Under the pieces are notes generated by a model. The model was given only the letters and a program-made list of their open reading frames with translations, was not told where the DNA came from and did no database searches. From a virus, in the IMG/VR virus record IMGVR_UViG_3300036985_002534, positions 1-32,652 of that record: 32,652 nt of DNA. One strand, 5' to 3'. Shown one piece after another: positions 2,215 to 26,984 of this stretch (the stretch's first letter is position 1; the number at the start of each line of letters is the position of its first letter). The position numbers were made by a program, and so were the translations under genes.

Positions 2215-2216
2215 AA

Positions 2217-4755: not shown

Positions 4756-4776
4756 AAATCAAATATAGAATAAATC

Positions 4777-4806: not shown

Positions 4807-4870
4807 AGGAAAATTCTTACTATTACTATATACTCTTTTATATATATATTTACTTTTTTTCAAAAAATTT

Positions 4871-12840: not shown

Positions 12841-13162
12841 AAAAAACTGTATCAGATGCAGCAGCGTTTACATATGCTCCATTATTAATTGAATAGTCAT
12901 CTGCAGTTTGATTTGTGCAGAAAATTTTATCTAAATATATTATATTACCGGATATATCTTTTACCGTAAAATTATAAAAATGATTTTCAACTAAAGTAAA
13001 TACAGTAGTTGCAGTTAAATAATATTCATTACTATAAAAAGATGGTGTTATTACAGTTTCTACTTGTGTACTTTCATTTCTCAATGTAATAGAATATGCT
13101 TCCATATTACGAGGAATAAAAGATACTTGTTGAGCAGATGCAGATTGTAATAGTTTAATCAT
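12833..13162 (-). CDS. Small virion-associated protein, first gene of the portal operon
   Basis: 109 residues, predicted all-beta (FIPRNMEAYSITLRN, YYLTATTVFTLVENH, IIYLDKIFCTNQ, YSINNGAYV). Similar small beta proteins near portal genes occur in Bacteroidetes phages without an assigned role (recollection). It is the first gene after the late promoter at 13169-13196, whose downstream element ends only 6 bases before this ATG, so its mRNA may be leaderless. Confidence 0.6.
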   Translation of the reverse strand: MIKLLQSASAQQVSFIPRNMEAYSITLRNESTQVETVITPSFYSNEYYLTATTVFTLVENHFYNFTVKDISGNIIYLDKIFCTNQTADDYSINNGAYVNAAASDTVFYE

Positions 13163-13168
13163 ACTATA

Positions 13169-13196
13169 ATAACAATTTTTACCCTATATTGTTTCA
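13169..13196 (-). promoter_or_regulatory. Late promoter element, copy A (portal operon)
   Basis: On the minus strand, TGAAACAA (13196-13189), 12 bases, ATTGTTAT (13176-13169), 6 bases, ATG (13162). The upstream box begins inside the T run of the preceding terminator. Same boxes and spacing as copies at 15994-16021, 23078-23105 and 26331-26358. Confidence 0.75.
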
Positions 13197-13225
13197 AAAA
13201 AAAACCCCTATAATAAAATAGGGGT
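13197..13225 (-). terminator. Terminator after the tail-tube-like gene
   Basis: ACCCCTAT and ATAGGGGT (13218-13225 and 13204-13211) around a 6-base AT loop, followed on the minus strand by nine T. It ends the capsid operon immediately before late promoter A. Confidence 0.9.
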
Positions 13226-13267
13226 AATTTAAAAAAAGACTTAAAGGCTGATCTTATGGGAAGCGTT

Positions 13268-13816
13268 TTAAGTTCCTTGTGTAATAGCTCCACCTACTAC
13301 TGTAGTAATAGCACCTGTTAAGAAATTAGCAGCGATTTTTTCCATTCCTACAAATTCGATAGTATATCCGGATAAATCTCCTAAAGCAGTTCCAGTTACA
13401 ACTGTTCCACCTGTAGCATCCATTCCTTGCTCTAAACCTGCAAAGAATAAATTACCGTTATTATCTTCAACAATCATTTGTGGTCTTGAATAAGCCAAAA
13501 GTTTAATTTGTTGATGACTTACTGCACTTAATTTTTTAAGTTGCAATGCTAATTTTTGTTCAAAAAATGTAGTTCCATTTTCACGTGAACTTGTCATAGT
13601 TTGATCAAATGAATTTGTTCCTTTTAAATCGTACTTAACTGCTGTAATTGTAGCAGCACCACTATTAGATGCAATAGCATCCGATAAAGTAGTTGTACCA
13701 TATACGAAAGTTGAAGGAGCAATATATCCACTTGAAATAATGTAAACAGATCTTAATCCACCTACGCTTGATTTAGTTGGCTCAAGTCTACCGAGTGTAA
13801 ACGCTTCTGCTGGCAT
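13268..13816 (-). CDS. Major tail tube protein candidate
   Basis: 182 residues, beta-rich: FDQTMTSSRENGTTFFEQ, then LKKLSAVSHQQIKLLAYS, RPQMIVEDNNGNLFFAG, and GTALGDLSGYTIEFVG near the C-terminus. The order (strand-rich core, ENGTT loop, VEDNNG hairpin) matches a structural protein I recall as the tail-tube subunit of Bacteroidetes siphoviruses. A stem-loop (13831-13854) just upstream may set its level relative to capsid; a strong terminator follows. Its place beside the capsid and not beside the tape measure is unusual, and a decoration protein is the alternative. Confidence 0.6.
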   Translation of the reverse strand: MPAEAFTLGRLEPTKSSVGGLRSVYIISSGYIAPSTFVYGTTTLSDAIASNSGAATITAVKYDLKGTNSFDQTMTSSRENGTTFFEQKLALQLKKLSAVSHQQIKLLAYSRPQMIVEDNNGNLFFAGLEQGMDATGGTVVTGTALGDLSGYTIEFVGMEKIAANFLTGAITTVVGGAITQGT

Positions 13817-13830
13817 AGTTTTAAAGTTTT

Positions 13831-13854
13831 AAAAAGGGGACTTTTACATCCCCT
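13831..13854 (-). terminator. Attenuator-like stem-loop between capsid and tail-tube genes
   Basis: On the minus strand, AGGGGA (13854-13849) and TCCCCT (13840-13835) around an 8-base loop, then TTTTT. No promoter is seen after it, so partial read-through into the 13268-13816 gene is likely. Confidence 0.6.
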
Positions 13855-13867
13855 AATTGATTATTGA

Positions 13868-14884
13868 TTATCCTCCGTAAAGAACTCCTTTTGTAGCTTG
13901 ACCAACATTGGCAGCTAAAGTATAGATAGCTCTAACAAATTGAGTATCTCCATCATTAACGGTTTTACCGATTTCAAAACGGTTTACGTCATCTAACAAG
14001 TCAGTATTCCAAGATACTGCTGCTGGTCTTTGAGCATAAGCCATCAAATTGTTAGGAGTTGGACAGAACAACAATTCAACACCATTGTAGAAACATTTTG
14101 CATCATTAGATGGACCATCAAATAAGAAGTTTATTTGTTGAGCAGCACCTACTGCATTATTAGCTATTCTTGCTAATTGTTTCCAAGCTCTTGGACAATA
14201 GATTTTAACCGGTGATAATGTATCAGCCAATATTTCTGCAGGAATAGCAGCGTAAATAAGTGCCATTTGAGAAGCAATATTTGCAGATGTTACAGTAGTT
14301 CCTGTTACTTTGATATAACCACCGATTGCAGCATTATCATAAAGTACTTTTGCAAATACACCATCTACTGGTCCTGCAGTTAAAGCAGCTACTGCAGTTT
14401 GAGTTGCAGTAGTCATAGATCCTTGTGCAGAACCTGGAGTTAAAGCAGCAATTGCAGTTTTTGTAGCAGAAGTAATACCACCCCAAAATTGAGATTCAGC
14501 ATCTTCTGAAACATTTGGAGCATATTGAGCCAATACAGTTGAAGCAAATTCATTACTATCAATGTTGAATGCACCTGGACTCATTGAACGACCAAAACGA
14601 CCTGCTCTCAAAGACTCTTGTAAGAATGTTTGTTTGTACTCTAATTTAGTAGGTGTGATTACTCTATCAGTAATGGTCATTGATCCACTATTAGATAATG
14701 CAGCACCTGTGTAAAGTTGTGCAGTTACTGCTACTGATGCTTCAGTAAAAATTGTACCTGCTTTGATGTCGGTATTAAATGTAACATACCCATCAGCGAT
14801 TGTTTTGTTAGCGAATAAAACTTCCTCAAGGATAGGTTCTACTGCTTTTCCTCTAATGTCTACCGAAGTATAAGAAATTGCCAT
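13868..14884 (-). CDS. Major capsid protein
   Basis: 338 residues starting MAISYTSVDIRGKAVEPILEE. Features fit an HK97-fold coat protein: an N-terminal arm, an LEYKQTFLQESLRAGRF spine-helix-like stretch, an Ala/Thr-rich middle, PVKIYCPRAWKQLARIAN, and the C-terminal FCPTPNNLMAYAQRP and DTQFVRAIYTLAA. It directly follows protease and scaffold genes, the classic order for head formation, with 7 bases after the scaffold stop. Strong repeated Ala/Gly codons suit high expression. Two near repeats of a TxTAxAALTPGxxQG-like segment lie around residues 140-175. Confidence 0.85.
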   Translation of the reverse strand: MAISYTSVDIRGKAVEPILEEVLFANKTIADGYVTFNTDIKAGTIFTEASVAVTAQLYTGAALSNSGSMTITDRVITPTKLEYKQTFLQESLRAGRFGRSMSPGAFNIDSNEFASTVLAQYAPNVSEDAESQFWGGITSATKTAIAALTPGSAQGSMTTATQTAVAALTAGPVDGVFAKVLYDNAAIGGYIKVTGTTVTSANIASQMALIYAAIPAEILADTLSPVKIYCPRAWKQLARIANNAVGAAQQINFLFDGPSNDAKCFYNGVELLFCPTPNNLMAYAQRPAAVSWNTDLLDDVNRFEIGKTVNDGDTQFVRAIYTLAANVGQATKGVLYGG

Positions 14885-14891
14885 ATTTTAA

Positions 14892-15428
14892 TTATTTTAA
14901 ATTTTGTTTAATTAATCTGAATTTTTCGAGTGCAGTCATCTCTCTATTTACTGCTGGTTCTGGATTAGTTACAATTGCTTTCGCTCCTGCTTCTTCTAAT
15001 TCCACTTTAATAGCTTCTAATTCTACTTTTAATGCTTTGTTTTCAGCTTCCAATTTTTCAACTTCTACTTTAATTTCTGCAAAAAATGTTTCTTTAGTAA
15101 TTGTATCTACAATCTTTTTAGGAGTTGATGCTTCAACAGATGCTTCAATTTCAACTTCTACTTCTTCAGTTTCAGCAGGAGCTTCAACAGGTTTTACTTC
15201 TTTAATAATTCCTTCAACTTCTACTACTACAATCATTCCATCTGTTGTTTCGTGTTCTCCAATTGGAGCAGGAACAATTCCTTCAGATGTAACTATACCA
15301 ACTGAATAACCAGGTTCAAATGATTCAGCTTCTAAAACGGTAATACCATCTACTAAAGTCATTTGTTCTAATTTTACTTCAATTGATAAAAGTGCTTTAA
15401 TTTTGTTTAATGTGTTTTTAAACTCCAT
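14892..15428 (-). CDS. Scaffold protein candidate
   Basis: 178 residues, very acidic and Glu/Val-rich, with a predicted coiled coil at about 115-155 (FFAEIKVEVEKLEAENKALK). The C-terminus is a short basic helix (TALEKFRLIKQNLK), as expected for a capsid-binding tail. Position between protease and capsid and the composition are typical of scaffolding proteins, which fill the prohead and are removed by the protease. It overlaps the protease gene by 11 bases. Confidence 0.8.
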   Translation of the reverse strand: MEFKNTLNKIKALLSIEVKLEQMTLVDGITVLEAESFEPGYSVGIVTSEGIVPAPIGEHETTDGMIVVVEVEGIIKEVKPVEAPAETEEVEVEIEASVEASTPKKIVDTITKETFFAEIKVEVEKLEAENKALKVELEAIKVELEEAGAKAIVTNPEPAVNREMTALEKFRLIKQNLK

Positions 15429-15987
15429 TGATTAAATCTTTTATTTTGTTATACATTAATTCATCTTCAGACATTTCTAATTTTTCATTAAAAAATCCTT
15501 CGATTGAAAATCCTTTGATCTCACCAGATTTAACTTTATCTTTTATATCCGGATTGTCAATTGATATAGCAACCATCCAAGTATTAATAGGATAATCAAA
15601 TCCATACATAACACTTTTATCATTTACCATATCCTCTTTTAGCCACGTTTCAACAACTGTTACGCCTTCAACTTTAGACTTGTGTTGTAAGGTCGATTCC
15701 GATTGATAACCGTTTTTCATAAATTTATGTGCAGTCTTTTGGATTGTATCACCACTAAAAAATACTTGGTATATATCTCCATCTTCTCCCATTCTGTCTA
15801 TCTTCATATCCGGAATAAGAACTGCACCTAATAATATATTCTTTTTAGATTCAATTTCTTTAAATTCAATCTTATGCTCTTTTGATAATGCGATCCAATT
15901 CTCTTGTATGGCAGGTTGGTTTACTAAACTAATTGCAAACACACCGTCTTGCTCCTCATCTAAAACCAATTCAAAAACTTTCTTCAT
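15418..15987 (-). CDS. XkdF-like prohead protease
   Basis: 189 residues matching the XkdF putative serine protease domain: ISLVNQPAIQENWIAL near the N-terminus, KNILLGAVLIPDMKIDR, a GDTIQKTAHKFMKNG helix, STLQHKSKVEGVTVVETWL, then TWMVAISIDNPDIKDKVKSG and GFSIEGFF. The family processes scaffold and capsid during head maturation; a conserved His (H105 or the nearby AHKF) and the Ser in GFSIEGF are catalytic candidates. It is the first gene of the head operon, 6 bases downstream of the late promoter boxes. Confidence 0.85.
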   Translation of the reverse strand: MKKVFELVLDEEQDGVFAISLVNQPAIQENWIALSKEHKIEFKEIESKKNILLGAVLIPDMKIDRMGEDGDIYQVFFSGDTIQKTAHKFMKNGYQSESTLQHKSKVEGVTVVETWLKEDMVNDKSVMYGFDYPINTWMVAISIDNPDIKDKVKSGEIKGFSIEGFFNEKLEMSEDELMYNKIKDLINGV

Positions 15988-15993
15988 ATTACT

Positions 15994-16021
15994 ATAACAA
16001 TAAAACCCTGTTTTTGTTTCA
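15994..16021 (-). promoter_or_regulatory. Late promoter element, copy C (head operon)
   Basis: On the minus strand, TGAAACAA (16021-16014), 12 bases, ATTGTTAT (16001-15994), 6 bases, ATG (15987). No TAnnTTTG box was found between the terminator and this ATG, which argues that this element is the promoter. Confidence 0.75.
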
Positions 16022-16029
16022 CACTATTT

Positions 16030-16052
16030 TTATTTAGACTAATTCTAAATAA
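16030..16052. promoter_or_regulatory. Palindrome next to late promoter C
   Basis: Perfect 9-base arms TTATTTAGA and TCTAAATAA around 5 bases, ending 8 bases upstream of the TGAAACAA box. A regulator site is plausible. The other late promoter copies have no such palindrome. Confidence 0.4.
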
Positions 16053-16104
16053 GCGTTTATACTCTTTATATATATATTTTATCTTTTTTTTAAAAAATTT
16101 AATA

Positions 16105-16155
16105 AAAAGGGTATACCCCCTAAAATGAAACGTCTTTTTTAGGGGGGGGGTATAG
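16105..16155 (-). terminator. Poly-C/G stem terminator after tape measure (copy 2)
   Basis: On the minus strand, TATA with nine C and TAAAA pair with TTTTA, five G and TATA, followed by CCCTTTTTATT. Arms are near 16140-16154 and 16111-16125. It starts about 13 bases past the tape-measure stop and is related to the stems at 4871-4925 and 26946-26984. Confidence 0.85.
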
Positions 16156-16167
16156 AAAACTTATATT

Positions 16168-17898
16168 TTAACCAATACTTGCACTTTGGATTATATTGCG
16201 TTCCAAGCCTTGAGCAGTGGTTACGTCATTAGATAAAACATAAGTTTTTATAGGTTGTTGTTGTTGGTTACCTATTGTTTGTGCTAATTGATTTGTTGCA
16301 CTTGCACCTACTACGTTAAATGCAGGAGCAGTAGGAGCAGAACCTCCGCCACCACCTGAACCGCCAGAACCACCACCTGCACTACCTCCAGTAATAGATT
16401 TTGCACCTGATATACCAGCAGCAACAATAGAAGCAATAGAAGTAGCTGCAGTTAATTTTGTAAGAGCAAGAGTCTTACCTAATATTGAAACATTTCCAGC
16501 AATAACAGGAATTGCACTTGCACCACTTGTTGCTATAGCTTGTGGAGTTGCTAATGCAGCACTATTTGCTAAACCAGTAGCAGCAGAAGCTCCTGCAATA
16601 GTTTTAGAAGCTCCAACTATAATATCGGCAATAGCTAATCCTTTTGTAACTGCTAAAATACCTAATGCAATTGCTTTATTTTTACCTGCAAATTGTTGTA
16701 ATATATCTAACCCTACATTTAAAGCATTTCTTTTAGCTTCTTTTATTGCTAAATCTAAAGCAATTTCTTTATCTGCTTGTTCTTTTGCGTCAGCAAGTAT
16801 TTTATCGTTTTCTGTTTTAGTTATTATTGATAAATTTCTTTTATGTTCTTTTTCTATTTCTTCAATAGACAAACCTTTTTGTAATAAACTTTGTTTTTTT
16901 AATTCAAAATCAGCATTTTCTTTTTCAACTTTTATTTGGTTTTCAGTTTTTAAAGCATCTTCATTTGCTTTTTTTGTGTCTGCAATTAATTTTTGTCCGG
17001 CTTCGTATTCATCTCTTGCTCTTTCTCCTTGACTACTTATGAATGCTTGACGTTCTTTTTCTATTTCTTCTAATCTCTTTTTTTCTTCTTCTGCTTTTCT
17101 TATTCTTTCTTGTTTAGCTTTTTCATCATTAGCTGCTTGTTTTTCTTGTGCTGCCTTTCTTGCTTCTGCTCTTTTTTCAGCTTCTTCTTTTTCAGTTTGT
17201 GTAAGTTCTTTTGAACCTGCACTAAAACGCTTCATACTTTCACCATAAGATTCTTGAGTCTTTTTAAAACTTCCTCCAATTTTATCAATACCTTCAGAAA
17301 TAGCATCAGAATCTAAAGTAAAAATACCTTTTAATATTTTCATTACCCCACCACCTGATTCTTTTATAAAAGTAAAATATGCCATCATAGAAGAATAAAC
17401 CATACCTATTCCTTTTGTAACGTATGGTAAAGCTTCAGTTGCTAAATCTACAAACGTATTAAATAAAGGTTCTACTGCACGAAATACACCTTGAAACGCT
17501 TTTTTTAATCCGTCTAACAACGGTTGGATTTTTTTCATTGCACCTTCATTTTCTGAAAATGCAGCAACTAAACCTCCAATTAAAGAAACAAATAAACCTA
17601 TTCCTGTTGCTTTTAAAGCACCACCAAAAGATTGTGTAGCTACCTTTGCTTTATTCAAAGATGCTCCAACCATACCTAATGGTCCTCCTGCTGATTCTAA
17701 ACTATCTACCCAATCAGATGAAGCGTTTTTAGAGGATTTAATTTTATCTTCTAAATCGTCTATTTGGTTATATAACTTTTTAAAATCTTCTGAACCTGCA
17801 GCAGTATCTTTTAATTGCCTTTTTAATGCTTTTAAATCAGAAATAGACTCTCCAACATTTGATTTTATTTCTAACTCTATTGTTTTCTTTTCAGCCAT
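16168..17898 (-). CDS. Tape measure protein
   Basis: 576 residues: helical N-terminus (IKSNVGESISDLKALKRQLK), hydrophobic segments at about 70-115 (FGGALKATGIGLFVSLIGGL), a long charged coiled coil at about 230-400 (EKEEAEKRAEARKAAQEKQA), a second hydrophobic Ala/Ile-rich region at about 405-495, and a Gly/Ser run near the C-terminus. This is the standard tape-measure plan; by the usual 0.15 nm per residue the tail would be roughly 85 nm (rule-of-thumb inference). It is the last gene of the tail operon and its start overlaps a 52-residue gene by 22 bases. Confidence 0.9.
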   Translation of the reverse strand: MAEKKTIELEIKSNVGESISDLKALKRQLKDTAAGSEDFKKLYNQIDDLEDKIKSSKNASSDWVDSLESAGGPLGMVGASLNKAKVATQSFGGALKATGIGLFVSLIGGLVAAFSENEGAMKKIQPLLDGLKKAFQGVFRAVEPLFNTFVDLATEALPYVTKGIGMVYSSMMAYFTFIKESGGGVMKILKGIFTLDSDAISEGIDKIGGSFKKTQESYGESMKRFSAGSKELTQTEKEEAEKRAEARKAAQEKQAANDEKAKQERIRKAEEEKKRLEEIEKERQAFISSQGERARDEYEAGQKLIADTKKANEDALKTENQIKVEKENADFELKKQSLLQKGLSIEEIEKEHKRNLSIITKTENDKILADAKEQADKEIALDLAIKEAKRNALNVGLDILQQFAGKNKAIALGILAVTKGLAIADIIVGASKTIAGASAATGLANSAALATPQAIATSGASAIPVIAGNVSILGKTLALTKLTAATSIASIVAAGISGAKSITGGSAGGGSGGSGGGGGSAPTAPAFNVVGASATNQLAQTIGNQQQQPIKTYVLSNDVTTAQGLERNIIQSASIG

Positions 17899-18035
17899 TT
17901 TATTTCTCTTTTGATTTGGTTAAATCCTTGTTTTAATGTTGTTGGTCTTTGATATTTTCCTTTAGCTATTTCAATGAGTTCACTTTGTCCGTAAAATTCA
18001 TCTAATGCTAATAAATCTAAAATGTGCTTTATCAT
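17877..18035 (-). CDS. Small protein upstream of tape measure (52 aa)
   Basis: 52 residues starting MIKHILDLLALDEFYGQSEL, ending in a basic helix (REIKWLKRKQ). It fits exactly between the 691-residue tail gene (2 bases away) and the tape-measure start, overlapping the latter by 22 bases. A small factor coupled to tape-measure translation or tail assembly is possible; family not recognised. Confidence 0.55.
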   Translation of the reverse strand: MIKHILDLLALDEFYGQSELIEIAKGKYQRPTTLKQGFNQIKREIKWLKRKQ

Positions 18036-18037
18036 AA

Positions 18038-20113
18038 TTATCTAAAATCTGTTAATAATTCAAATTGAACTTCCCCTGTTGTTAAATCTGTTGTAAATGT
18101 ATTAATCAAATATCTCTTATCTCTTATAACAAGCCTATCGTTTAATTTAAGCGTAGTTAATAATGATGTTGGTAATATTCCACTAACTTTAATTAATCTT
18201 GCTTTAGAATCAAATATATTAGCTAAATAATTATCATAATATTGGTCATATAATCCTTTATCAATTAATTCATTTGTTAATGTGGATTGTTGTTGATTAA
18301 AGTTTAATCCATAAGTATTTGTACCATTAAAATATTCTTGTCCAAATGCTTTGTATGTAGTGTGCAATGTTGATGTTCCTCCCGTTACATTTATATTAAA
18401 CCAAAAATCTGCTCCTGTTAAATCAGTTGTATCAGTTGGATTATAATCATATAATATTACAGGTTTAGGAATATACTTTTGTAAATCAGTTTTTAAAGCA
18501 TAACCTACTTGTAATTTGTCTTTTAAATTACTAAAGTTTAAATCTTCAAAAGGTAGTTTAATATTGTATTCATCTCCATCATTATTTGTATTATAAAACA
18601 AAGAACCATACTCAATACCATTAGCAGAATTAAATCCTACATTAACTAAAGACTCGCTTTTTTCATATTCAAAATTTATTTTCTTATATGTTTTTACTCT
18701 ATTTAAAGTTGTGTTATCTGATTTTATATATTTTGTAATATCTCTTGTAGTTCCTGATATATAATAATCTTCTAATTGTTGAACTGTATAATTTATTCCA
18801 TCAGTTGAATAACAAGTCAAATTAAACATTTTTAATAATCCACTAAAGAAATCTTCTATTTTAATTTCTGGAAAATATTGATTGATTTGTAATGTATATG
18901 ATGGTGTTGTTTGAGATGCTGATAAAAAATTTCTTGTTTTAGTTTGTGATACAGGAGGAAATGCTGAAAAATCAATATATGTACTTACTGCTGATGTATT
19001 AGTTGTAAATGTAAATATTCCAGATGTTCCTATAAAAATTTCAAAATAATCATTTGTCGCATTTCTATTACCAGTTGATTCAATTTGTTTAGTAAATGCA
19101 ACTCCAGAAGTTGAATTTAATAATCCACTATCATAATATAATATTCCATTTTTATTTATTTTAATTGAATAAGTCACCCCTGTTACTGATGGTGTTACAG
19201 AAAAAGTAATTTGTTTTGCTACAAAAAGATAGGTGTCTCCACTTACAGTATAACCACTTGATGCAGTTGTATTTGTTATTTTATCATTAATTAAATCAAC
19301 AGTATATCCAGTTAATGCTGAACTATCGCCACTTTGTGAAGTAAAATTAACTTTTGTTAATGTTTGTTTTGCTTCAAATGTTTCTGCATTTTTTAAATAT
19401 AAATAAGCATTTGTAAACCTTGCATCATTTAAAAATGTGCTTGGTTCTGCAACTGTACCATCAAAGTTAATTCCAAATTGATTTTCAATCATATTTAAAA
19501 CAGGCTTTAATCTTATAGCAGGAAATAACTCATTATATCTAATTGGATATGTTGTATTACTTATGTTATTTGTAGGGTCAGTTGCACTATCGTAATTCCA
19601 ATATCTATTAGAACTAATTAAAGGAAACATTACATCAGAACTTGTAGTAGTTGTTACTACTTTATCTTTAACAACTGCAGCACTATAAGCAAAATCATAA
19701 GTAGTATCTGTTAAATCTTTTAAATATAAACCGTTAAATTTATCTTTTAAACTACCTAATGCACCTATAAATGTGATTGAATAATCTTGTGGTTGCCCAT
19801 CTTTTACATTTGCACTTTCAAGTTGTATCTTACCACTTCTAAATGGAATGGTATCTATTTCAATATATGCATCAGCTTTAACTAATGTACTAAATCCATT
19901 GTCATTACTATTTTCGTACCAATGTCTAAATATTTTATTATTTTGTTTTGATGCCGGTACAGTAAATGTTTGACTAAAATCAGTATAGGTTTTGCTTATA
20001 TCATTCACATTTTGAATAGAACTATTAACAGATATTTTTTCATCGTTAAATAATTCTACTCTATTGTATTCTAATGTAACTGAATCTTTAATATATATTC
20101 CTACTACTATCAT
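18038..20113 (-). CDS. Large tail/baseplate protein
   Basis: 691 residues, mostly beta with many Thr/Asn/Tyr. The N-terminal segment (YNRVELFNDEKISVNSSIQN, then DISKTYTDFSQTFTVP and NNKIFRHWYEN) is, from memory, strongly conserved in siphovirus tail-tip proteins of Bacteroidetes phages. The C-terminus contains LKLNDRLVIRDKRYLINTF. Likely a tail-tip or hub component reading between tail tube and fibres. It overlaps the upstream gene by 4 bases. Exact role (distal tail or hub) not determined. Confidence 0.7.
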   Translation of the reverse strand: MIVVGIYIKDSVTLEYNRVELFNDEKISVNSSIQNVNDISKTYTDFSQTFTVPASKQNNKIFRHWYENSNDNGFSTLVKADAYIEIDTIPFRSGKIQLESANVKDGQPQDYSITFIGALGSLKDKFNGLYLKDLTDTTYDFAYSAAVVKDKVVTTTTSSDVMFPLISSNRYWNYDSATDPTNNISNTTYPIRYNELFPAIRLKPVLNMIENQFGINFDGTVAEPSTFLNDARFTNAYLYLKNAETFEAKQTLTKVNFTSQSGDSSALTGYTVDLINDKITNTTASSGYTVSGDTYLFVAKQITFSVTPSVTGVTYSIKINKNGILYYDSGLLNSTSGVAFTKQIESTGNRNATNDYFEIFIGTSGIFTFTTNTSAVSTYIDFSAFPPVSQTKTRNFLSASQTTPSYTLQINQYFPEIKIEDFFSGLLKMFNLTCYSTDGINYTVQQLEDYYISGTTRDITKYIKSDNTTLNRVKTYKKINFEYEKSESLVNVGFNSANGIEYGSLFYNTNNDGDEYNIKLPFEDLNFSNLKDKLQVGYALKTDLQKYIPKPVILYDYNPTDTTDLTGADFWFNINVTGGTSTLHTTYKAFGQEYFNGTNTYGLNFNQQQSTLTNELIDKGLYDQYYDNYLANIFDSKARLIKVSGILPTSLLTTLKLNDRLVIRDKRYLINTFTTDLTTGEVQFELLTDFR

Positions 20114-21213
20114 ACAACATCATTTATAAGGTTATAAGCGTATTCAAAATCTATTTCATAGTTTATCAATCTATCTTTTAAACTTGTCTTTAAATCGCTT
20201 CCTTGTGTTTTAACGGTTACAGGTTTACTATCTAATAAAACTGTTTCTGATAATAGCAAATCAGTTATTAATTCTGAATAGTTTTGATCTACAAATCCGG
20301 TATTTAGTTTTATAGTTTGTGTTCCATTTATATTAAATGATTTAACTTGCCCTTTAGATGTGTTATAACTAATTGATGAAGGCATTAATTTATAATCTGT
20401 TCCTTTTACTGCAATAGTATTAGTTTGTTGTTTAAAGAACATTATATCTTGCCATCCACCATAACGATTTACAAAAGAACATCTAACCGGATTATATTTA
20501 TATTCAGCTATTGGATATGCAAAATTTATAAATGATACTACTGGAGTTCCTCCAGAGGGAGTTAAAGAAACTGTAACTTTACATCCTGTTGCATAATTAG
20601 CACCCAAATTAATTACAATTGAAATAGGAATAGAATAACTGAAAATACCAGCAACTCCAATTTGCAAATTATAAGCTACAGAATTAGTATTAGTTAAATT
20701 CTCAAATCCAACTGATAAAGTGCTTGTGCTTAATTTATCAACTATAAAATTAAAATTTTGAATATCATTATCAGTACTCCAATAATAATTTTTAATTGAA
20801 TTATTTAATAATGGTGTTAATAATGAATTTGATACTGTTTGCCTTCCATTTGAATAATTTGTAAATCCATTTACTCCTACATAATCAGTAGTATCTAAAG
20901 AAGTATAAGTTGTTCCTACTAATTTATATCTTGTAACTCTAAAATTTACCCATTCATTATTATCAAATTCTTCTGGCTCTTCTGATGTATATGGTCTTAT
21001 ATTATCTATAAACTCTTTAACATAATTTGATATGTTGTATGATGTGCTTATTTGTGTAGCACTTGGAATTGATTTAGATAAGGTATAAAATCCAGTGCCA
21101 CTTGTTGGAACTGCATTACCTTTTTGCCAAATTGCTAAATCTATTTTGCTTCCTATTTGTCCAGTTTCTGCTACTTCAATTATAAATGGACTTCTAACTT
21201 TAACTACTTTCAT
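20110..21213 (-). CDS. Tail/baseplate protein
   Basis: 367 residues, beta-rich, starting MKVVKVRSPFIIEVAETGQI, with several aromatic-rich strands (NRYGGWQDIMFFKQQ). It is coupled by ATGA to the preceding 54-residue gene and to the 691-residue gene, consistent with one tail-tip module. No specific family recognised; a distal-tail-type role is inferred from position upstream of the hub candidate. Confidence 0.65.
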   Translation of the reverse strand: MKVVKVRSPFIIEVAETGQIGSKIDLAIWQKGNAVPTSGTGFYTLSKSIPSATQISTSYNISNYVKEFIDNIRPYTSEEPEEFDNNEWVNFRVTRYKLVGTTYTSLDTTDYVGVNGFTNYSNGRQTVSNSLLTPLLNNSIKNYYWSTDNDIQNFNFIVDKLSTSTLSVGFENLTNTNSVAYNLQIGVAGIFSYSIPISIVINLGANYATGCKVTVSLTPSGGTPVVSFINFAYPIAEYKYNPVRCSFVNRYGGWQDIMFFKQQTNTIAVKGTDYKLMPSSISYNTSKGQVKSFNINGTQTIKLNTGFVDQNYSELITDLLLSETVLLDSKPVTVKTQGSDLKTSLKDRLINYEIDFEYAYNLINDVV

Positions 21214-21374
21214 ATTGTATGGTATATTGTATCAATCAATTCTTCATCTAAATATATTTCTTCTTTACATTCCCCCAGCCAATTTACGTACTTATTTGAA
21301 TCAATTACTTCTGTACTTTTAATTATAAATGTAGGAATATCTTCTTCTCCTTTATAAATTTTTACTATGTTCAT
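21210..21374 (-). CDS. Small acidic protein in tail operon (54 aa)
   Basis: 54 residues starting MNIVKIYKGEEDIPTFIIK, acidic. Both its start and stop lie in ATGA overlaps with adjacent tail genes, strong positional evidence for a real gene. Function unknown. Confidence 0.6.
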   Translation of the reverse strand: MNIVKIYKGEEDIPTFIIKSTEVIDSNKYVNWLGECKEEIYLDEELIDTIYHTI

Positions 21375-21910
21375 TTTATATCTTTTAAATTATAATCTAC
21401 CATCGTTTCAACATCTTGACCAAATGCTTTTATTAAATCTACATCTATATACTTTTTATATCCTGCTTCAAAAGGCTTTGTAAAAAATAAAGAAGGTTTA
21501 ATTCCTTTGTGAAAAATACTTCGTGTAATTAAGAAAGCTGTTGCCTCGTAAGATAAAAATCTCCCCTTCGATCCTTCCGATTTGCTCCGAAATTGAAAGC
21601 CTCTCTGTCGTACCCATTTCTCTATTCCTTTAGTTAATCCTCCTTTGGGTCCTGTACCTGATCCAAATTTAAATGGACTGTTAGGTGCTTTTGCTGAACT
21701 TGATTTTCCTTTTACTCCCTTATCTTGAAATGCCCCATAGTCATCCATTGAAAAGCCAACAATACTAAATCCATTCTCTGTAACTATTTCTCCTTTTAAA
21801 CTATCGTATAATTTTTTAGTTACATTCTTACCACCTTTAGTTAAATTACTCCTGGCTTGTTGGATCACATAATCCCTAAACTTTTTTATGACATTATCAA
21901 CTTCAGTCAT
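21371..21910 (-). CDS. Tail completion protein, HK97 gp10-like
   Basis: 179 residues, basic. The motif SMDDYGAFQDKGVKG (about 55-69) matches the YGxFxExGT-type signature of HK97 gp10/minor tail completion proteins, with the usual helical N-terminus (VIKKFRDYVIQQARSNL). These proteins cap or stabilise the head-proximal tail end. It shares one base with the upstream gene. The loop after the motif is longer than in typical members. Confidence 0.65.
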   Translation of the reverse strand: MTEVDNVIKKFRDYVIQQARSNLTKGGKNVTKKLYDSLKGEIVTENGFSIVGFSMDDYGAFQDKGVKGKSSSAKAPNSPFKFGSGTGPKGGLTKGIEKWVRQRGFQFRSKSEGSKGRFLSYEATAFLITRSIFHKGIKPSLFFTKPFEAGYKKYIDVDLIKAFGQDVETMVDYNLKDIK

Positions 21911-22335
21911 TATCTTATAGGCATATCATTAGGCACTAATATCTCAAATGTAACTGTGCATCCTGCAACCTTATCCTCAAACCTATCTCTAAAAAATTCG
22001 TAGTTTACACCACCGGTTAATTGATACAAATCCGTAAATAAGTCGCCCCTTCTTAACATTTCAGCTAACTTAATACCTACCATTGATTGAGTATGCATCA
22101 CATCCTGCTCATTTGTATCGTCATCATTCACTAAATCCATAGAAATAACAGAGATATTATAGGCAAATGCCTCTCCTTCTTCCCTAAATGAGTTCACAAC
22201 TATGTGAGATATTGGATAAATATCTTGTTTATTTAGTGCAATATTAAAAATAGAGCCACTTGTAACTGTCTTACAAAACGGATCTAACTTTAATTGGTCC
22301 TCTATTGTGCTTAAAACTTGGTAATATCCTATCAT
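21910..22335 (-). CDS. Tail terminator-like protein
   Basis: 141 residues with the mixed alpha/beta order of tail terminators: an N-terminal helix (YYQVLSTIEDQLKLDP), strand (IYPISHIVVNSF), central strand (AYNISVISMDLVND), then a helix and a C-terminal VTFEILVPN strand. Located between chaperone and completion genes, so a role in stopping tail-tube growth and joining head to tail fits. No catalytic motif. Confidence 0.6.
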   Translation of the reverse strand: MIGYYQVLSTIEDQLKLDPFCKTVTSGSIFNIALNKQDIYPISHIVVNSFREEGEAFAYNISVISMDLVNDDDTNEQDVMHTQSMVGIKLAEMLRRGDLFTDLYQLTGGVNYEFFRDRFEDKVAGCTVTFEILVPNDMPIR

Positions 22336-22587
22336 TTCTTTATCATTTTAGCTTCTATTTCGTTCTTTTGCTTCTCAAAACTTAACCAGGTTAAGCATTC
22401 GTGTATATTTATCCTTGTAATTTTGTCAAATCTTGTAAGGTCTCCTTGAGCAATAGCATAGATTGAACTATACCATCCCCATCTTTGCCCGAATTGCCCT
22501 GCAGCAGAATATTCTGTACCTCCGGATCCTTCTCCAAATAAACAATCGTAGCGTTCAGTAATGCGTTCCCTAAACGATAAAAAAAAA
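22332..22587 (-). CDS. Frameshift extension of the tail assembly chaperone (GT-like)
   Basis: An open frame, -1 relative to the 22409-23071 gene and overlapping its last third. It has no ATG or GTG that could start the conserved part; the only upstream start is a TTG at 22604. It encodes SFRERITERYDC, then FGQRWGWYSSIYAIAQGDL and HECLTWLSFEKQKNE, a Trp-rich helical domain like the T part of phage G/GT chaperones. A nine-T run (minus strand, 22587-22579) in phase G-GTT-TTT-TTT-TAT contains a classical T-TTT-TTT slippery site joining the two. Its stop overlaps the terminator-like gene's ATG by 4 bases. Confidence 0.65.
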
Positions 22588-23071
22588 CCGTAGCACCTAA
22601 ACAAACATCTAATGGGGCATACTTCATAACTTCTCCATAAGTTATCGTTCCATTGTAATCTTCAATCTCATATGTGCCATTTAAGCCATTCTTTTTAATC
22701 GGTCTATACAATACTGCTATTGCCCGGTGCATCATATCCCAATCAGTTATATAAGTATCTAAATCGGTATATTCTCCAAATGTCATATCCTCAAGATTAG
22801 GAATGAAACCAAATTCAGTGCCACCTAATTTAAATCTTTGGATCAACTTATGCTCCTGACTAAACATCGCACCAAGTGAAGCAGTTATATCATTTACATC
22901 TTTATATTTAATATTGGCAATATCTTTTAAATCAATACCACAAAATATCTGGACCATCTTCTGGTGAAGGAACTCGGAATCTTCATTGTCTTTAGCAATC
23001 TTTAAAAATGCCTGGTATTGAGATAATTTAATCTCATTTAATTTAGTCGGGATTGTGATTTCTAACTTCAT
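22409..23071 (-). CDS. Tail assembly chaperone (G-like)
   Basis: 220 residues starting MKLEITIPTKLNEIKLSQYQ, mainly helical, with YQAFLKIAKDNEDSEFL, QIFCGIDLKDI and a conserved-looking LLLKETLQDLTKL end. Position (first gene of the tail operon), and an overlapping -1 frame with chaperone-like sequence, make this the G part of a G/GT pair that holds the tape measure during tail assembly. The late promoter boxes end 6 bases before its ATG. By this reading two products are made: 220 residues, and a -1 fusion of about 255. Confidence 0.7.
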   Translation of the reverse strand: MKLEITIPTKLNEIKLSQYQAFLKIAKDNEDSEFLHQKMVQIFCGIDLKDIANIKYKDVNDITASLGAMFSQEHKLIQRFKLGGTEFGFIPNLEDMTFGEYTDLDTYITDWDMMHRAIAVLYRPIKKNGLNGTYEIEDYNGTITYGEVMKYAPLDVCLGATVFFYRLGNALLNATIVYLEKDPEVQNILLQGNSGKDGDGIVQSMLLLKETLQDLTKLQG

Positions 23072-23077
23072 AATATA

Positions 23078-23105
23078 ATAACAATTTTAATAAAAATTTG
23101 TTTCA
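23078..23105 (-). promoter_or_regulatory. Late promoter element, copy B (tail operon)
   Basis: On the minus strand, TGAAACAA (23105-23098), 12 bases, ATTGTTAT (23085-23078), 6 bases, ATG (23071). Directly downstream of a terminator. Confidence 0.75.
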
Positions 23106-23108
23106 CAC

Positions 23109-23140
23109 AAAAAAGGATAACCATTTACGATTACCCTTTT
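23109..23140 (-). terminator. Terminator ending the packaging operon
   Basis: On the minus strand, AAAAGGGTAA (23140-23131) pairs with TTATCCTTTT (23120-23111), ten pairs with one G-U, 10-base loop, followed by more T. It separates the small-gene tail of the packaging operon from late promoter B. Confidence 0.8.
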
Positions 23141-23162
23141 AAGTCTAACAAAAACCAAATTA

Positions 23163-23324
23163 CTAATTAACTAACTTTATATCTATTGCGAAAAAATTTT
23201 CGCTAAACATCTCTTTAAAAATGGTTATTACCATTTGCTCATTCTCTGCAGTTATATCTGCATATTGATAATCCTTCTCATTATCGCCATATCTAAACCA
23301 TCCTTTTACTTCGTATCGTTTCAT
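23163..23324 (-). CDS. Small protein, unknown (53 aa)
   Basis: 53 residues starting MKRYEVKGWFRYGDNEKDYQ. It looks like a small alpha/beta domain (KGWFRYGD strand, then an ITAENEQMVITIFKEMF helix). It is the last gene before the terminator at 23109-23140, which supports its reality. Function unknown. Confidence 0.6.
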   Translation of the reverse strand: MKRYEVKGWFRYGDNEKDYQYADITAENEQMVITIFKEMFSENFFAIDIKLVN

Positions 23325-23325
23325 A

Positions 23326-23406
23326 TTATCTAACTATTAAACTGATTACAAAATAAGCTGCCACTACTCCGATAAAATAAATTTGATATTTTTGTTTTGA
23401 TAACAT
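23326..23406 (-). CDS. Single-span membrane microprotein (26 aa)
   Basis: 26 residues: MLSKQKYQIY followed by a hydrophobic helix (FIGVVAAYFVISLIV) and Arg. It ends one base before the next gene's ATG. Very short, so the call rests on composition and tight spacing. Confidence 0.4.
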   Translation of the reverse strand: MLSKQKYQIYFIGVVAAYFVISLIVR

Positions 23407-23417
23407 AATGTTTGTTT

Positions 23418-23612
23418 TTAAAATTTTTCTATTTCTTGTCTTACTTTAATATAATATTCAATTTTTTCTTTGTGTAAAGTAAATGGTTTTACATTACATA
23501 TATATAATATTTCATAAACTATTTTATTTGCAAATAATTTAGCAACTTCTTTAGAAGCTCCATTAGTAATCGCCCAATCAATTAAATCTTTTGCTTTTTC
23601 TTTTGGTGTCAT
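23418..23612 (-). CDS. Small helical protein, MTPKEKA type (64 aa)
   Basis: 64 residues starting MTPKEKAKDLIDWAITNG, helical. Its upstream neighbour also starts MTPKEKA, so the two are probably distant paralogues from a tandem duplication. Their genes overlap by ATGA. Similar short proteins opening TPKEKA are common in phages of this group (recollection), function unknown. Confidence 0.6.
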   Translation of the reverse strand: MTPKEKAKDLIDWAITNGASKEVAKLFANKIVYEILYICNVKPFTLHKEKIEYYIKVRQEIEKF

Positions 23613-23788
23613 AATTTATTTATTTCAAATTTAACTTCTTGCCAATATCCTACATCTGAATGATTCACTTGTTTTATTAATTCGTCAATTGCTACTTTTG
23701 CACAATCCCTAACATCTAAAGGTAATAATTCATCTACTGAATTACACATCTTATTAAATATTTCAAACGCTTTTTCTTTTGGTGTCAT
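23609..23788 (-). CDS. Small helical protein, MTPKEKA type (59 aa)
   Basis: 59 residues starting MTPKEKAFEIFNKMCNSVDE, paralogue candidate of the 64-residue neighbour. Stop overlaps the next start (ATGA); the start follows an AT-rich AATTATG context common to many genes here. Function unknown. Confidence 0.6.
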   Translation of the reverse strand: MTPKEKAFEIFNKMCNSVDELLPLDVRDCAKVAIDELIKQVNHSDVGYWQEVKFEINKL

Positions 23789-23801
23789 AATTATTAAATT
23801 G

Positions 23802-24008
23802 TTATTTGTTATTATTATTTAACCAATACTTTCCTGATTTTACTGTTCTATATCTACTAACTACAAAAGAATCTTGTGTACTTTCTATATCAGTATCTTT
23901 TATTAATATTCCAAAATCTTGAGTTTCAAAATATTTCATATCATATTTACCTTGAAATACTAAATTTCCTGACACTGACCTTGCAAATTTATAAAAATGT
24001 GTTCCCAT
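23802..24008 (-). CDS. Hypothetical protein (68 aa)
   Basis: 68 residues from MGTHFYKFARSVSGNLVFQG. A longer frame runs back to 24041, but the Met at 24008 avoids a 29-base overlap and has the AAAATTATG context used by neighbours, so I prefer it. Mostly beta with a basic patch; family not recognised. Confidence 0.55.
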   Translation of the reverse strand: MGTHFYKFARSVSGNLVFQGKYDMKYFETQDFGILIKDTDIESTQDSFVVSRYRTVKSGKYWLNNNNK

Positions 24009-24012
24009 AATT

Positions 24013-24219
24013 TTAATTATTAAATTCTTCATATCTTTCACTAAGTGGGTTATTATATCTTTCTGCTATAACAGTCCATAAAGCTAATTCTTTACTATCT
24101 CCTAATTGTATTAATATATTCAAAGATTTTTCTTCTTTAATAGAAAATAAATTAACTAAATTGTTATATTGATTTTCTTTAGTTTCATTTGCTAATGTGT
24201 AAATTTCTGGAGTTGTCAT
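24013..24219 (-). CDS. Hypothetical protein (68 aa)
   Basis: 68 residues starting MTTPEIYTLANETKENQYNN, helical, acidic, ending YEEFNN. It follows the terminase region after a 70-base AT-rich gap without a clear promoter. No family recognised. Confidence 0.55.
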   Translation of the reverse strand: MTTPEIYTLANETKENQYNNLVNLFSIKEEKSLNILIQLGDSKELALWTVIAERYNNPLSERYEEFNN

Positions 24220-24289
24220 TGTGTTTATTTTTTTAGTTGTTAATACTTCTGCAAATATTATAATTATATTTTAAACTACCAAATTTTTT

Positions 24290-24442
24290 TCAAAATATTT
24301 TTATCCTTGCATTTGCCACATCAAACATTTGCCTCAATTTTTGCACCTGATTAAATGATCTTGGTAGTGCAATCTGTACTTCTGTACCTGTCATCAAATG
24401 TATGTAACATTGAACAAAAGCAATCATATAAGAATAGTTCAT
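24290..24442 (-). CDS. Small protein coupled to terminase (50 aa)
   Basis: 50 residues starting MNYSYMIAFVQCYIHLMTGT, with an amphipathic basic second half (RSFNQVQKLRQMFDVANARI). Its ATG shares one base with the terminase stop (TAATG), so reinitiation after the terminase is likely. No family recognised. Confidence 0.5.
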   Translation of the reverse strand: MNYSYMIAFVQCYIHLMTGTEVQIALPRSFNQVQKLRQMFDVANARIKIF

Positions 24443-25653
24443 TAGTAGATGTGGTATTTGCCCCTTTCGGGATTTGATAGATTAAAAAATACATTGTACC
24501 GGATTGCATCTATAGAGTGATTCCAATTATCAATAACTAATCCGGATTTCTTATCCGAGTAAACATAATTGTTTAGTTCCTTCGCTATATTACTACTCGC
24601 CTCCTCAACTATAATTGTATAGTCTTGCATCAATGCTAATCCTGCAGTTATGCTTCCAGGTCCTTTTGCAGTTGGTATTATATTACATCCATTTGCAGCC
24701 ATCTCTGCAATCAGTCTTGGCTCTGCACTATCAGCTATTATAAGGCGTTCTCTTGCAATGTTTTTATTATAGAATACTATTTCACTTGTGGTTAGTTTTG
24801 GCTTGTATAAATGCTCCTTTACATAGATTATCTTTTTAGTCTTATCAATTGCCACCTCAACTAATGTAGTTGGATCAATACTAAATCCATAATCTTGCCC
24901 GAATGATGTCTGTAAGTTATCCGGATTAAACTCTCCAAATCTCCAATTAGTAAATACTACTCCTTCTGCTTTATCTAACCATCCACCTAAAATAACGTGC
25001 TTATACTTTTTAGGATTTAATTCTCTTATCTTCTCAATCTCATTTATGAATGATTGGTCCAGGTTCTCAATATTATCCTGATAGGTTGTATGAATGTAGG
25101 TAACATTTCCTTTTGTACCATTAAAGCCTTCTGTAATTCCTTCGCTTTCAAAAAACCTTTTATAAATCCAATGCTCTTTAGTTGCAGGATTAAGTATAAG
25201 TACTATTCTATTTTGAACTCCCTTCTGCCTGATTGATAAATTAATCTTATCAAATATATCCTCATCAACTAACTCCTCTGCTTCATCTAATATCCAGGTT
25301 GTAACCCCTTGCAATGATTTAAGGTTTGCAGTTTGATCACCGGAGCTTGTTTTGATTCCTTTGAAGATTATATCCGTTCCTGATTTCTTATTCCTTATTT
25401 CGCCTTTATTAACTTCGAATAAATCTCCAGCTAACATTAAATCAATCTTCTCTTGGAACTCTGGAATGATTGATAGGTGTGCAGATGTCATTGTCTGCCT
25501 TGTAAATAATATCTTATGCCCTGATTGAAATGACAAAGTCGATGCCATAGCACCGACCTCAAAAGATTTACCACTACCCCTACCTCCGGTTACAATAAAA
25601 TATCTTGTTTCATTTTCATAAAGGGGTAAATATTTTGAATTAAGATTTAGCAT
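24442..25653 (-). CDS. terL: Terminase large subunit
   Basis: 403 residues. ATPase: Walker A GGRGSGKS (23-30), Walker B TWILDEAEE (119-127), coupling motif LNPATKEHW (154-162). Nuclease (RNase H fold): D254 in FGQDYGFS, D308 in IADSAEP, D382 in HSIDAIRY. It cuts concatemers and pumps DNA through the portal. The chain is close to the PBSX/Terminase_3 type in length. Downstream of the small-subunit candidate, with a 59-residue gene between them that overlaps the start by 14 bases. The portal gene is more than 11 kb away, which is unusual. Confidence 0.95.
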   Translation of the reverse strand: MLNLNSKYLPLYENETRYFIVTGGRGSGKSFEVGAMASTLSFQSGHKILFTRQTMTSAHLSIIPEFQEKIDLMLAGDLFEVNKGEIRNKKSGTDIIFKGIKTSSGDQTANLKSLQGVTTWILDEAEELVDEDIFDKINLSIRQKGVQNRIVLILNPATKEHWIYKRFFESEGITEGFNGTKGNVTYIHTTYQDNIENLDQSFINEIEKIRELNPKKYKHVILGGWLDKAEGVVFTNWRFGEFNPDNLQTSFGQDYGFSIDPTTLVEVAIDKTKKIIYVKEHLYKPKLTTSEIVFYNKNIARERLIIADSAEPRLIAEMAANGCNIIPTAKGPGSITAGLALMQDYTIIVEEASSNIAKELNNYVYSDKKSGLVIDNWNHSIDAIRYNVFFNLSNPERGKYHIY

Positions 25654-25819
25654 AAAAATTAGTCAATGTCATTCCGTAAACTATTCGTACTTTATGTTTG
25701 AGTTCTTTACAAAGTCTTTTATATATTCTCGGATGCACCGTAATTACATTTGGCTTACAATCTAATCCTTTTGCATCTGAAACTATTCTGTCGTAAACTG
25801 GTCTTGAAATTTGTTTCAT
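25640..25819 (-). CDS. Small basic protein between terminase genes (59 aa)
   Basis: 59 residues starting MKQISRPVYDRIVSDAKGLD, basic, with a VHPRIYKRLCKELKHKVRI stretch. ATGA overlap with the small terminase stop and a 14-base overlap with the large terminase start. Could be a terminase accessory or DNA-binding factor; no family recognised. Confidence 0.6.
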   Translation of the reverse strand: MKQISRPVYDRIVSDAKGLDCKPNVITVHPRIYKRLCKELKHKVRIVYGMTLTNFYAKS

Positions 25820-26085
25820 TTGAATTTTATTACATCTTTTAAATCAAAATCGTTTACATTAAGATTTGTATTTTGATCGATAACTTGTTTAGGCATTCCA
25901 TATCTATATTGTAACCAAGTCTTAATAGCATTTGTATCTCCTTTACTAACCTTTTCTGCTAAAGCTGCCCATACTTCTTCTGGTACTGCAATAGCATCCA
26001 TAGACTCAATAAGTGTTATCTCATCTATCTTTGGTTTTCTTCCAGCTCCTGGTCTTGCACCACCATTTTTTTTAACTACTTCCAT
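25816..26085 (-). CDS. terS: Small terminase subunit candidate
   Basis: 89 residues: the N-terminal GGARPGAGRKPK is a common opening of small terminase-like phage DNA-binding proteins, followed by helical segments and GDTNAIKTWLQYRYGMPKQ, which fits the oligomerisation part of such proteins. Located two genes upstream of the large subunit. Shorter than classical small terminases (usually 140 or more), so it may be a minimal form. Confidence 0.7.
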   Translation of the reverse strand: MEVVKKNGGARPGAGRKPKIDEITLIESMDAIAVPEEVWAALAEKVSKGDTNAIKTWLQYRYGMPKQVIDQNTNLNVNDFDLKDVIKFK

Positions 26086-26100
26086 TTTGAAAAAAGTTGA

Positions 26101-26310
26101 TTATTCAGTTTTCGCCTTTGCTTTTGGTGCTTCTGCAAATTTAGATAATACATCTGTATAACTTCTCCATTGTGAGTCGTTATCATTTGCATCTACTAAA
26201 CCACCGACTTCTTCTTTATAGACTTCAGCTAATATAATTTTTTGCCCTAATGTCAATTCTTTTTTATTATTGAAATAATCATTGATTATTTCTTGATTTT
26301 CTTTTTTCAT
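26101..26310 (-). CDS. Hypothetical protein, first gene of packaging operon (69 aa)
   Basis: 69 residues starting MKKENQEIINDYFNNKKELT, helical, with a charged Ala/Lys C-terminus (EAPKAKAKTE). First gene after late promoter D, with a 20-base leader and AAAATTATG start context. No family recognised; a packaging accessory is possible from position. Confidence 0.6.
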   Translation of the reverse strand: MKKENQEIINDYFNNKKELTLGQKIILAEVYKEEVGGLVDANDNDSQWRSYTDVLSKFAEAPKAKAKTE

Positions 26311-26330
26311 AATTTTATATTGTTTTATTT

Positions 26331-26358
26331 ATAACAAATTAATCCTTAATTTGTTTCA
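26331..26358 (-). promoter_or_regulatory. Late promoter element, copy D (packaging operon)
   Basis: On the minus strand, TGAAACAA (26358-26351), 12 bases, TTTGTTAT (26338-26331), then 20 bases to the ATG at 26310. It differs from the other copies by one base in the second box. The first box lies inside the last codons of the sigma-like gene. Confidence 0.7.
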
Positions 26359-26770
26359 ATCGTTCTTTGAGTTCTTTTAGTGTTCTATAAACCCAATTGT
26401 AATCGTAATGGTATTTTAAAGCAAATTTCCGAAGGGATAATTCTTCTTCAATATATTTTAGATAGAATAGCTTTTCATCCCAAGACCAATTATCCAAAGT
26501 AAATAATACATCTGTTATATCTGTTGGAGATGAAGGTATAATATCTTCTGCATCCAAGTTATCATAAAACGGAATGGTATCTAATTTCCTTTTGTTATGC
26601 ATATTCATACAAATAGAATGCAAGGTAAAATAGAAATACGATTCGTTTATATTTTCTTTACCATATATTTTTATATAAGCATCCTGGACTGCATCCTCTG
26701 GAAAATCTGTAATTCCAAATGAATAGGCTAATCCAATCCAGTACTTATGTTTTTTATATATCTCATCCAT
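26339..26770 (-). CDS. Sigma-70-family (ECF-like) RNA polymerase sigma factor
   Basis: 143 residues from MDEIYKKHKYW. Region 2: FPEDAVQDAYIKIYG (23-37) resembles the DAEDxxQExFxK core-binding helix; region 2.4-like helix SYFYFTLHSICMNMHNKRK (44-62). Region 4: LSLRKFALKYHYDYNWVYRTLKELKERL (split helix-turn-helix, about 111-138). A TTG at 26794 gives a longer frame but lies inside the promoter, so the ATG at 26770 is preferred. It would redirect host RNA polymerase; its stop lies within late promoter D, followed by packaging genes. Small size and no region 3 fit an ECF-like factor. Confidence 0.8.
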   Translation of the reverse strand: MDEIYKKHKYWIGLAYSFGITDFPEDAVQDAYIKIYGKENINESYFYFTLHSICMNMHNKRKLDTIPFYDNLDAEDIIPSSPTDITDVLFTLDNWSWDEKLFYLKYIEEELSLRKFALKYHYDYNWVYRTLKELKERLKQIKD

Positions 26771-26791
26771 AATGTAAATATAGTATAAATC

Positions 26792-26820
26792 CAAAAATAA
26801 AATAACATATTTATTAACAA
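26792..26820 (-). promoter_or_regulatory. Host-type promoter of the sigma-factor gene
   Basis: On the minus strand, TTG (26820-26818), 18 bases, TATTTTTG (26799-26792); start expected near 26787, 17 bases before the ATG at 26770. Nearly identical over about 30 bases to the promoter at 4777-4806. Confidence 0.7.
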
Positions 26821-26908
26821 TAGGATTTTTCTTACTATTCCTTTATACTACTTTTATATATATATATCTTTTTTTTTTTAAAATTTAAAATATATATAAA
26901 AAACACTA

Positions 26909-26931
26909 TTTACAGATTTATAATCTGTAAA
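26909..26931 (-). terminator. Second stem-loop of tandem terminator (copy 3)
   Basis: Perfect 10-base arms TTTACAGATT and AATCTGTAAA around 3 bases; the minus strand continues TAGTGTTTTTT. Downstream of the poly-C/G stem. Confidence 0.75.
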
Positions 26932-26945
26932 AACTGATTTTTTGA

Positions 26946-26984
26946 CCCCCCCCCCTATTTTCAAATCACTTTTTTAGGGGGGGG
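26946..26984 (-). terminator. Poly-C/G stem-loop after early operon (copy 3)
   Basis: On the minus strand, CCCCCCCCTA (26984-26975) pairs with TAGGGGGGGG (26957-26948), with two further G. Loop about 17 bases. It begins about 10 bases past the stop of the 69-residue gene. No T run follows directly; the next stem supplies it. Confidence 0.75.

Follow-up and report, generated by a model that had tools for sequence, protein, structure and literature searches.

A putative phage-encoded ECF-like late sigma factor and its candidate promoters in a family of presumably Bacteroidota-type phages

Four late operons of a virus genome each follow a copy of the same two-box element, which raises the question of what reads these elements. 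The window, that is, the whole stretch of DNA analyzed here, comprises the 32,652 bases of a virus record from IMG/VR. A scan of the whole window for TGAAACAA-N12-WTTGTTAT yields four exact matches (0 mismatches), all on the minus strand, at 26331-26358, 23078-23105, 15994-16021 and 13169-13196, precisely the copies listed in the initial annotation, and no further sites at up to 2 mismatches. At the same tolerance, dinucleotide shuffles contain 0.34 sites on average and never reach 4, and exact copies are absent from 400 first-order random sequences. The invariant 12-base spacing reported in that annotation holds in 4 of 4 sites, and the single-base difference between boxes is confined to the W position (A or T, with T at 26331). 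The two boxes and the fixed spacing accordingly stand as described; their partition into 8-mers with a 12-bp spacer does not, the functional split being that of the ECF register, TGAAAC-N16-TGTT.

The genes downstream, all on the minus strand, agree with the proposed assignment of the copies to packaging, tail, head and portal-to-lysis operons. Candidate late promoter 1 (26331-26358) precedes a gene for a 69-aa protein that is conserved in relatives (26101-26310), followed by TerS and the terminase large subunit, TerL (24442-25653). Promoter 2 (23078-23105) precedes the tail genes, the first of which (22409-23071) belongs to phrog_32199, of unknown function, with a weak match to a tail protein family. 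Promoter 3 (15994-16021) stands before the prohead protease (Peptidase_S78_2, 15418-15987) and the capsid gene, and promoter 4 (13169-13196) before an operon that extends from portal to phage lysozyme and opens with a gene for a 109-aa protein (12833-13162), next to which comes the portal gene (11131-12840). Three of the four sites had been placed behind terminators, and this is borne out for two of them: an intrinsic terminator with a T-tract (13204-13225, -12.1 kcal/mol) adjoins promoter 4 on its upstream side, and a terminator-like hairpin (23109-23140, -11.8 kcal/mol, z -7) adjoins promoter 2, the third hairpin, upstream of promoter 3 (16107-16121), being weak (-6.1, z -0.4). The host-type box TAnnTTTG, reported as missing from the four intervals, is indeed found in none of them. 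A scan of the window with the host sigma-70 consensus returned 92 matches, the level seen in shuffled sequences, and is uninformative.

A candidate reader is encoded in the window itself. The gene at 26339-26770 (minus strand) encodes a putative small ECF-like sigma factor of 143 aa, and its stop codon lies inside promoter 1, the -35 box of which falls within the final codons of that gene. The protein consists of region 2 (residues 1-64), a linker (~65-85) and region 4 (86-142); the residues that might read the -10 element are N56 and N59, and N125 occupies the helix that would read the -35 box. Searched alone against Pfam, this protein (P0001) has no match, including to ArpU/RinA-type regulator profiles, and among PHROGs it matches only phrog_36, a transcriptional regulator, through its HTH part (E 0.011); it is placed in the sigma family because its relatives match. 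The family, gathered by terminase-guided searches and then an iterated profile, comprises 134 loci with 101 distinct sequences of the small region 2 plus region 4 type, located syntenically 0.5-5 kb upstream of TerL. Among 56 representatives, 30 match Pfam Sigma70_r2, 32 match PHROG 31712 (best E 3.5e-100) and 25 match PHROG 1740, RNA polymerase sigma factor (best 1.2e-8), the window protein itself matching neither PHROG at E 0.001. The best PDB match of the family profile is the ECF factor SigW (E 8.6e-7), with an alignment that covers both regions. An AF2 model (pLDDT 82.7, pTM 0.42) shows two helical domains joined by a flexible linker, and its top Foldseek ranks are sigma-H, sigma-E and other ECF sigmas. 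The E-values are weak (best 1.7e-3), as it is uncertain how the two domains are placed relative to each other. In line with ECF (group 4) factors, regions 2 and 4 are present and regions 1.1 and 3 absent, and the promoters comprise two boxes, an AAC-type -35 and a CGT/GTT-type -10, ~16-17 nt apart.

Searches for isolated relatives had mixed outcomes. Megablast of the whole window against phages gave nothing useful, and tblastn of the B-type sigma variant against isolate phages gave no match. The TerL search led to Nonlabens phage P12024S; TerL is also held in common with Riemerella phage RAP44, in the annotation of which no sigma is evident. Two divergent sigma-like groups (LQFWYYCVAKNIISRNGK and GGLRFYIVRIMLTQWRSN) also occur upstream of TerL (members L302, L303, L306, L309, L339, L342, L344, L347, L349 and L350).

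Across the family, the site accompanies the protein. Among the 125 sigma-bearing loci with an ortholog of the tail gene, 107 carry the site at the tail-gene ATG, compared with 20 among the 917 remaining gene starts of those loci, and the recurrence of the motif before late operons of related phages, suggested as a check in the initial annotation, is thereby observed. The fit fails in the other 18 loci, in part where gene order or gene start differs. The family architecture at this ATG consists of ~wAACAA, a C-to-tetramer distance of 17, a tetramer of the form [C/A/T][G/A]TT, 8 nt, and ATG.

The variation of the tetramer is informative as to which protein reads it. An unbiased scan for covariation between every sigma column and every promoter position, run on sigmas clustered at 90% identity, has three of its top four couplings (z 9.5-9.9) at the expected places: -10 base 1 varies with residue 59, -10 base 2 with residue 56, and the third -35 base with residue 125, the recognition-helix position of region 4.2. 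The strongest z belongs to residue 31 and a downstream base, a pairing with no clear meaning or structural reason, and further, weaker couplings also come without a structural reason. At residue 59, in counts of 90% clusters, arginine goes with C (17), serine with C (2) and asparagine with T (5); lysine is degenerate, with A in 12 clusters and C in 6; and R-T, R-A and K-T are single exceptions. L334 and L335 combine arginine with A, and L233 has mixed sites. At residue 56, D or N goes with G as base 2 in 40 of 40 clusters, and A, Q or Y with non-G in 5 of 5. The combination of NxxN with TGTT is found in two separate clades, that of the window and L285-L314. On the TerL tree, independent pairs favor the coupling 5:0 for residue 56, 4.8:0 for R/S at 59 with C, 3.6:0 for N at 59 with T, and 3.4:0 for residue 125, all in one direction with essentially none opposed, the pairs being too few for p<0.05 in each test (medians 0.0625-0.5). 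The alignment with sigmas of solved structure is in keeping with these couplings: residue 56 corresponds to N92 of Mycobacterium tuberculosis sigma-H, which hydrogen-bonds the C opposite the G of the -10 element (PMC6411747), and residues 56 and 59 correspond to D79 and R82 of sigma-L, in a helix (78-82) proposed to read C-G before the -10 (PMC6372665); our sigma-L numbering reproduces His54 and Asp60 of that paper. The region 2.4 and 4.2 residues that would set specificity in an ECF factor are pinpointed here by covariation, a statistical rather than biochemical criterion. In L313, L314 and L289, which have NxxN sigmas, the protease promoter reads GGTT and the tail promoter TGTT; NxxN sigmas may tolerate different bases at position 1 of the -10.

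The covariation bears directly on the possibility that a host ECF sigma reads the sites and the phage protein has another role. Flavobacteria possess several ECF sigmas, and one ECF-type motif described in Flavobacterium psychrophilum has CGT as its -10 box (PMC9723704). However, the -10 letters track the residues of the phage's own protein, phage by phage, even among phages with >97% identical terminase, and protein and motif co-occur in 107 loci. The covariation of residues and bases therefore argues strongly against a host factor as the reader, and we consider such a factor quite improbable.

Among close relatives (sigma 84-97% identical), the sites of a genome switch in concert. Every readable site is either WTTGTTAT or TACGTTTA, that is, TGTT or CGTT, with the -35 kept and the spacer almost unchanged, and none of the close-relative contigs examined mixes the two. 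The more distant L203 (sigma 75%) has TTCGTTTT at both its sites. These concerted changes, together with the coupling of region 2.4 to the -10 and of region 4.2 to the -35, support the initial proposal of a phage-encoded late sigma as the reader. A 4.8-kb metagenome contig, L012 (3300020042_005634; sigma at 89-517, sites at 501 and 2942), carries C-type boxes at both sites together with the T-type residues N56/N59, against the residue code; we suspect a chimeric contig or a recent recombinant, patchwise identities fitting equally with and without such an origin, and alternatively its sigma may be relaxed. A swap of region 2.4 as the sole cause of the box switch is contradicted by this contig and was rejected.

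Box variation among relatives is also pertinent to a further alternative, namely, that the boxes form an operator bound by a dimeric transcription factor, which might cooperate with a host sigma. The window boxes do hold a partial inverted repeat (AACAAW/WTTGTT, of the form AACAA...TTGTT), but relatives with CGTT, AGTT or CATT lack it and nonetheless keep position and spacing, and on this ground the inverted-repeat operator was rejected. The absence of the host -7 box from the sites and the location of the coupled residues where ECF sigmas contact DNA likewise speak against an operator, which appears still less probable than a host reader.

The sites are also tied to start codons at a fixed distance, a feature that is new here and that the initial annotation had missed. 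In three of the four window sites, TTGTTAT is followed by exactly 6 nt, equivalent to 8 nt after TGTT, and ATG; at promoter 1 the gap is 20 nt. Family-wide, GTT, 8 nt and ATG follow one another at 99 of 107 tail sites and 34 of 42 protease sites, and a genome-wide scan that demands exact 8-nt spacing adds few sites, the clear ones bearing the genome's own tetramer. In the sigma-H open complex, GTT spans positions -11 to -9, at a distance of 8 nt from +1 (PMC6411747). The GTT-ATG gap equals this distance, and therefore +1 at promoters 2, 3 and 4 should be the A of the ATG at 23071, 15987 and 13162, respectively; at promoter 1, the predicted +1 is ~26324, with a leader of ~14 nt upstream of the gene that starts at 26310. 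Judging by the spacing, most late mRNAs, among them those from three of the four window promoters, should be leaderless. Such mRNAs are uncommon in flavobacteria: they account for 5.5% of the mRNAs of F. psychrophilum (PMC9723704), and 87% of the predicted transcripts of F. johnsoniae have leaders over 10 nt (PMC6847099).

A constant distance to the start codon would also be expected of an element that works at the RNA level and signals translation initiation or anti-termination ahead of the late operons. Terminator-like hairpins lie directly upstream of two of the sites, however, and therefore RNA that spans the upstream box would be scarce; furthermore, the spacers are unrelated, and copy 1 has another distance to ATG with the same box spacing. 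An RNA element seems the least probable of the three alternatives.

The sigma gene had been described as lying behind a host-type promoter and ending in the first motif copy, and both parts hold. Upstream of it is the -7 box TATTTTTG (26792-26799, minus strand), which fits the host consensus TAnnTTTG (PMC9723704), and through this box the gene is probably expressed early or in the middle of infection by host sigma-A. A second such box, TATATTTG (4777-4784, minus strand), lies upstream of ORF 4363-4755 in a 49-nt block, CCTATTGTTAATAAATATGTTATTTTATnTTTGGATTTATnCTATATTT, common with the sigma promoter; apart from two variable positions, the two copies show 0 mismatches. On the minus strand, the region that carries the sigma promoter thus occurs twice, at 4753-4945 and 26768-26960, and both copies of CCTATTGTTAATAAATATGTTATTTTATnTTTGGATTTATnCTATATTT stand behind a G-run/C-run hairpin.

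Put together, these relationships suggest a scenario in which TAnnTTTG promoters would let host sigma-A transcribe the early operon as well as the sigma gene, and the phage sigma would bind the host core RNA polymerase and send it to the four late promoters, TGAAAC-N16-TGTT here and ~wAAC-N16-[C/A/T]GTT family-wide. Region 4.2 would read the -35 and helix 2.4, through residues 56 and 59, bases 1 and 2 of the -10 tetramer, the covariation being observed and the binding presumed; three of the four promoters would be fused to the start codon, with +1 at the A of ATG. That the phage supplies a minimal ECF-like late sigma factor of its own, which reads the four late promoters via host polymerase, is very probable on the strength of these sequence comparisons. 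With moderate confidence, we extend this to a large Bacteroidota-type phage family in which the -10 code would have been rewired several times, the late promoters of a genome switching together while locked to start codons, with a mostly leaderless late program in hosts where few mRNAs lack leaders. The rewirings in this joint reading, somewhat likely in the same measure, are DxxR to C, NxxN to T, DxxK mostly to A, and loss of D/N to loss of G. Bacteroidota-type hosts are suggested by the Nonlabens relative and by relatives borne on MAGs.

Phage-encoded late sigmas are already known from phiEco32 and 7-11, with a different promoter. These late sigmas are ECF-like. Both phages are enterobacterial podophages, for which an anti-sigma gene is reported; a cognate anti-sigma or a fused regulatory domain is common, though not universal, with ECF factors, and no candidate for one was noticed here. 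They employ the phage-encoded sigma for middle and late promoters and host sigma-70 for early genes, and their promoters consist of one uninterrupted motif (tAATGTAtA; TGATGT core) (PMC4331800), in contrast to the window phage, where two boxes stand at a fixed distance and are fused to the start codon. The phiEco32-type single motif TAATGTATA (from PMC4331800), devoid of a separate -35, was not encountered, two boxes being present throughout. The consensus of Bacillus subtilis SigW, TGAAAC-N16,17-CGTA (PMC2375139), matches TGAAAC-N16-CGTT/TGTT, and SigW is the best sequence match among solved structures, but it is a cellular stress sigma of 187 aa with an anti-sigma, RsiW, compared with 143 aa in the phage. 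M. tuberculosis sigma-H and sigma-L resemble the phage protein in having only regions 2 and 4, and sigma-H in its GTT -10, but are cellular, and the accessible parts of their reports describe no link between promoter and start codon.

An isolated counterpart is gp33 of P12024S (and P12024L), a syntenic family member with ~21% identity; the comparison of the family profile with gp33 is not independent because the underlying alignment includes the near-identical L279. Reading of gene starts and an unguided search for repeats revealed seven AAACA-N-CGTTA elements directly upstream of P12024S genes, with a spacing of 18 where measured, as opposed to 17. The protein is annotated only as hypothetical with Sigma-70 region 2, and the accessible literature yielded no report of promoter function for these elements. 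T4 gp55 and the ArpU/RinA-type late regulators are small phage late transcription proteins as well; they have no family match to the window sigma and differ in promoter architecture. No prior report of this sigma family was found in the literature accessible to us, outside which most subscription papers lie.

The system described here is a candidate late-gene switch for widespread aquatic Bacteroidota-type phages, the transcription of which is almost unstudied, and it suggests what many proteins of the unnamed PHROG family 31712 may do. It also amounts to a natural experiment on ECF promoter recognition: the covariation of residues 56 and 59 with the two bases before TT supports the idea that this helix reads CG, which is raised but not shown for sigma-L (PMC6372665). 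If the leaderless prediction is true, many late proteins would be translated from mRNAs whose first codon is the AUG itself, and this in the phylum of F. psychrophilum, with its small leaderless fraction.

The segment between sigma and TerL holds additional genes in some relatives. In L269, a tRNA-Leu (gag) gene (9782-9870) lies there, and other relatives have tRNA-like 3' ends that are not called by ARAGORN. In L203, a gene that by eye resembles ParB and DNA methyltransferases (1818-3023) separates the first packaging gene from TerS, and this cargo slot, directly behind the late promoter, varies among relatives.
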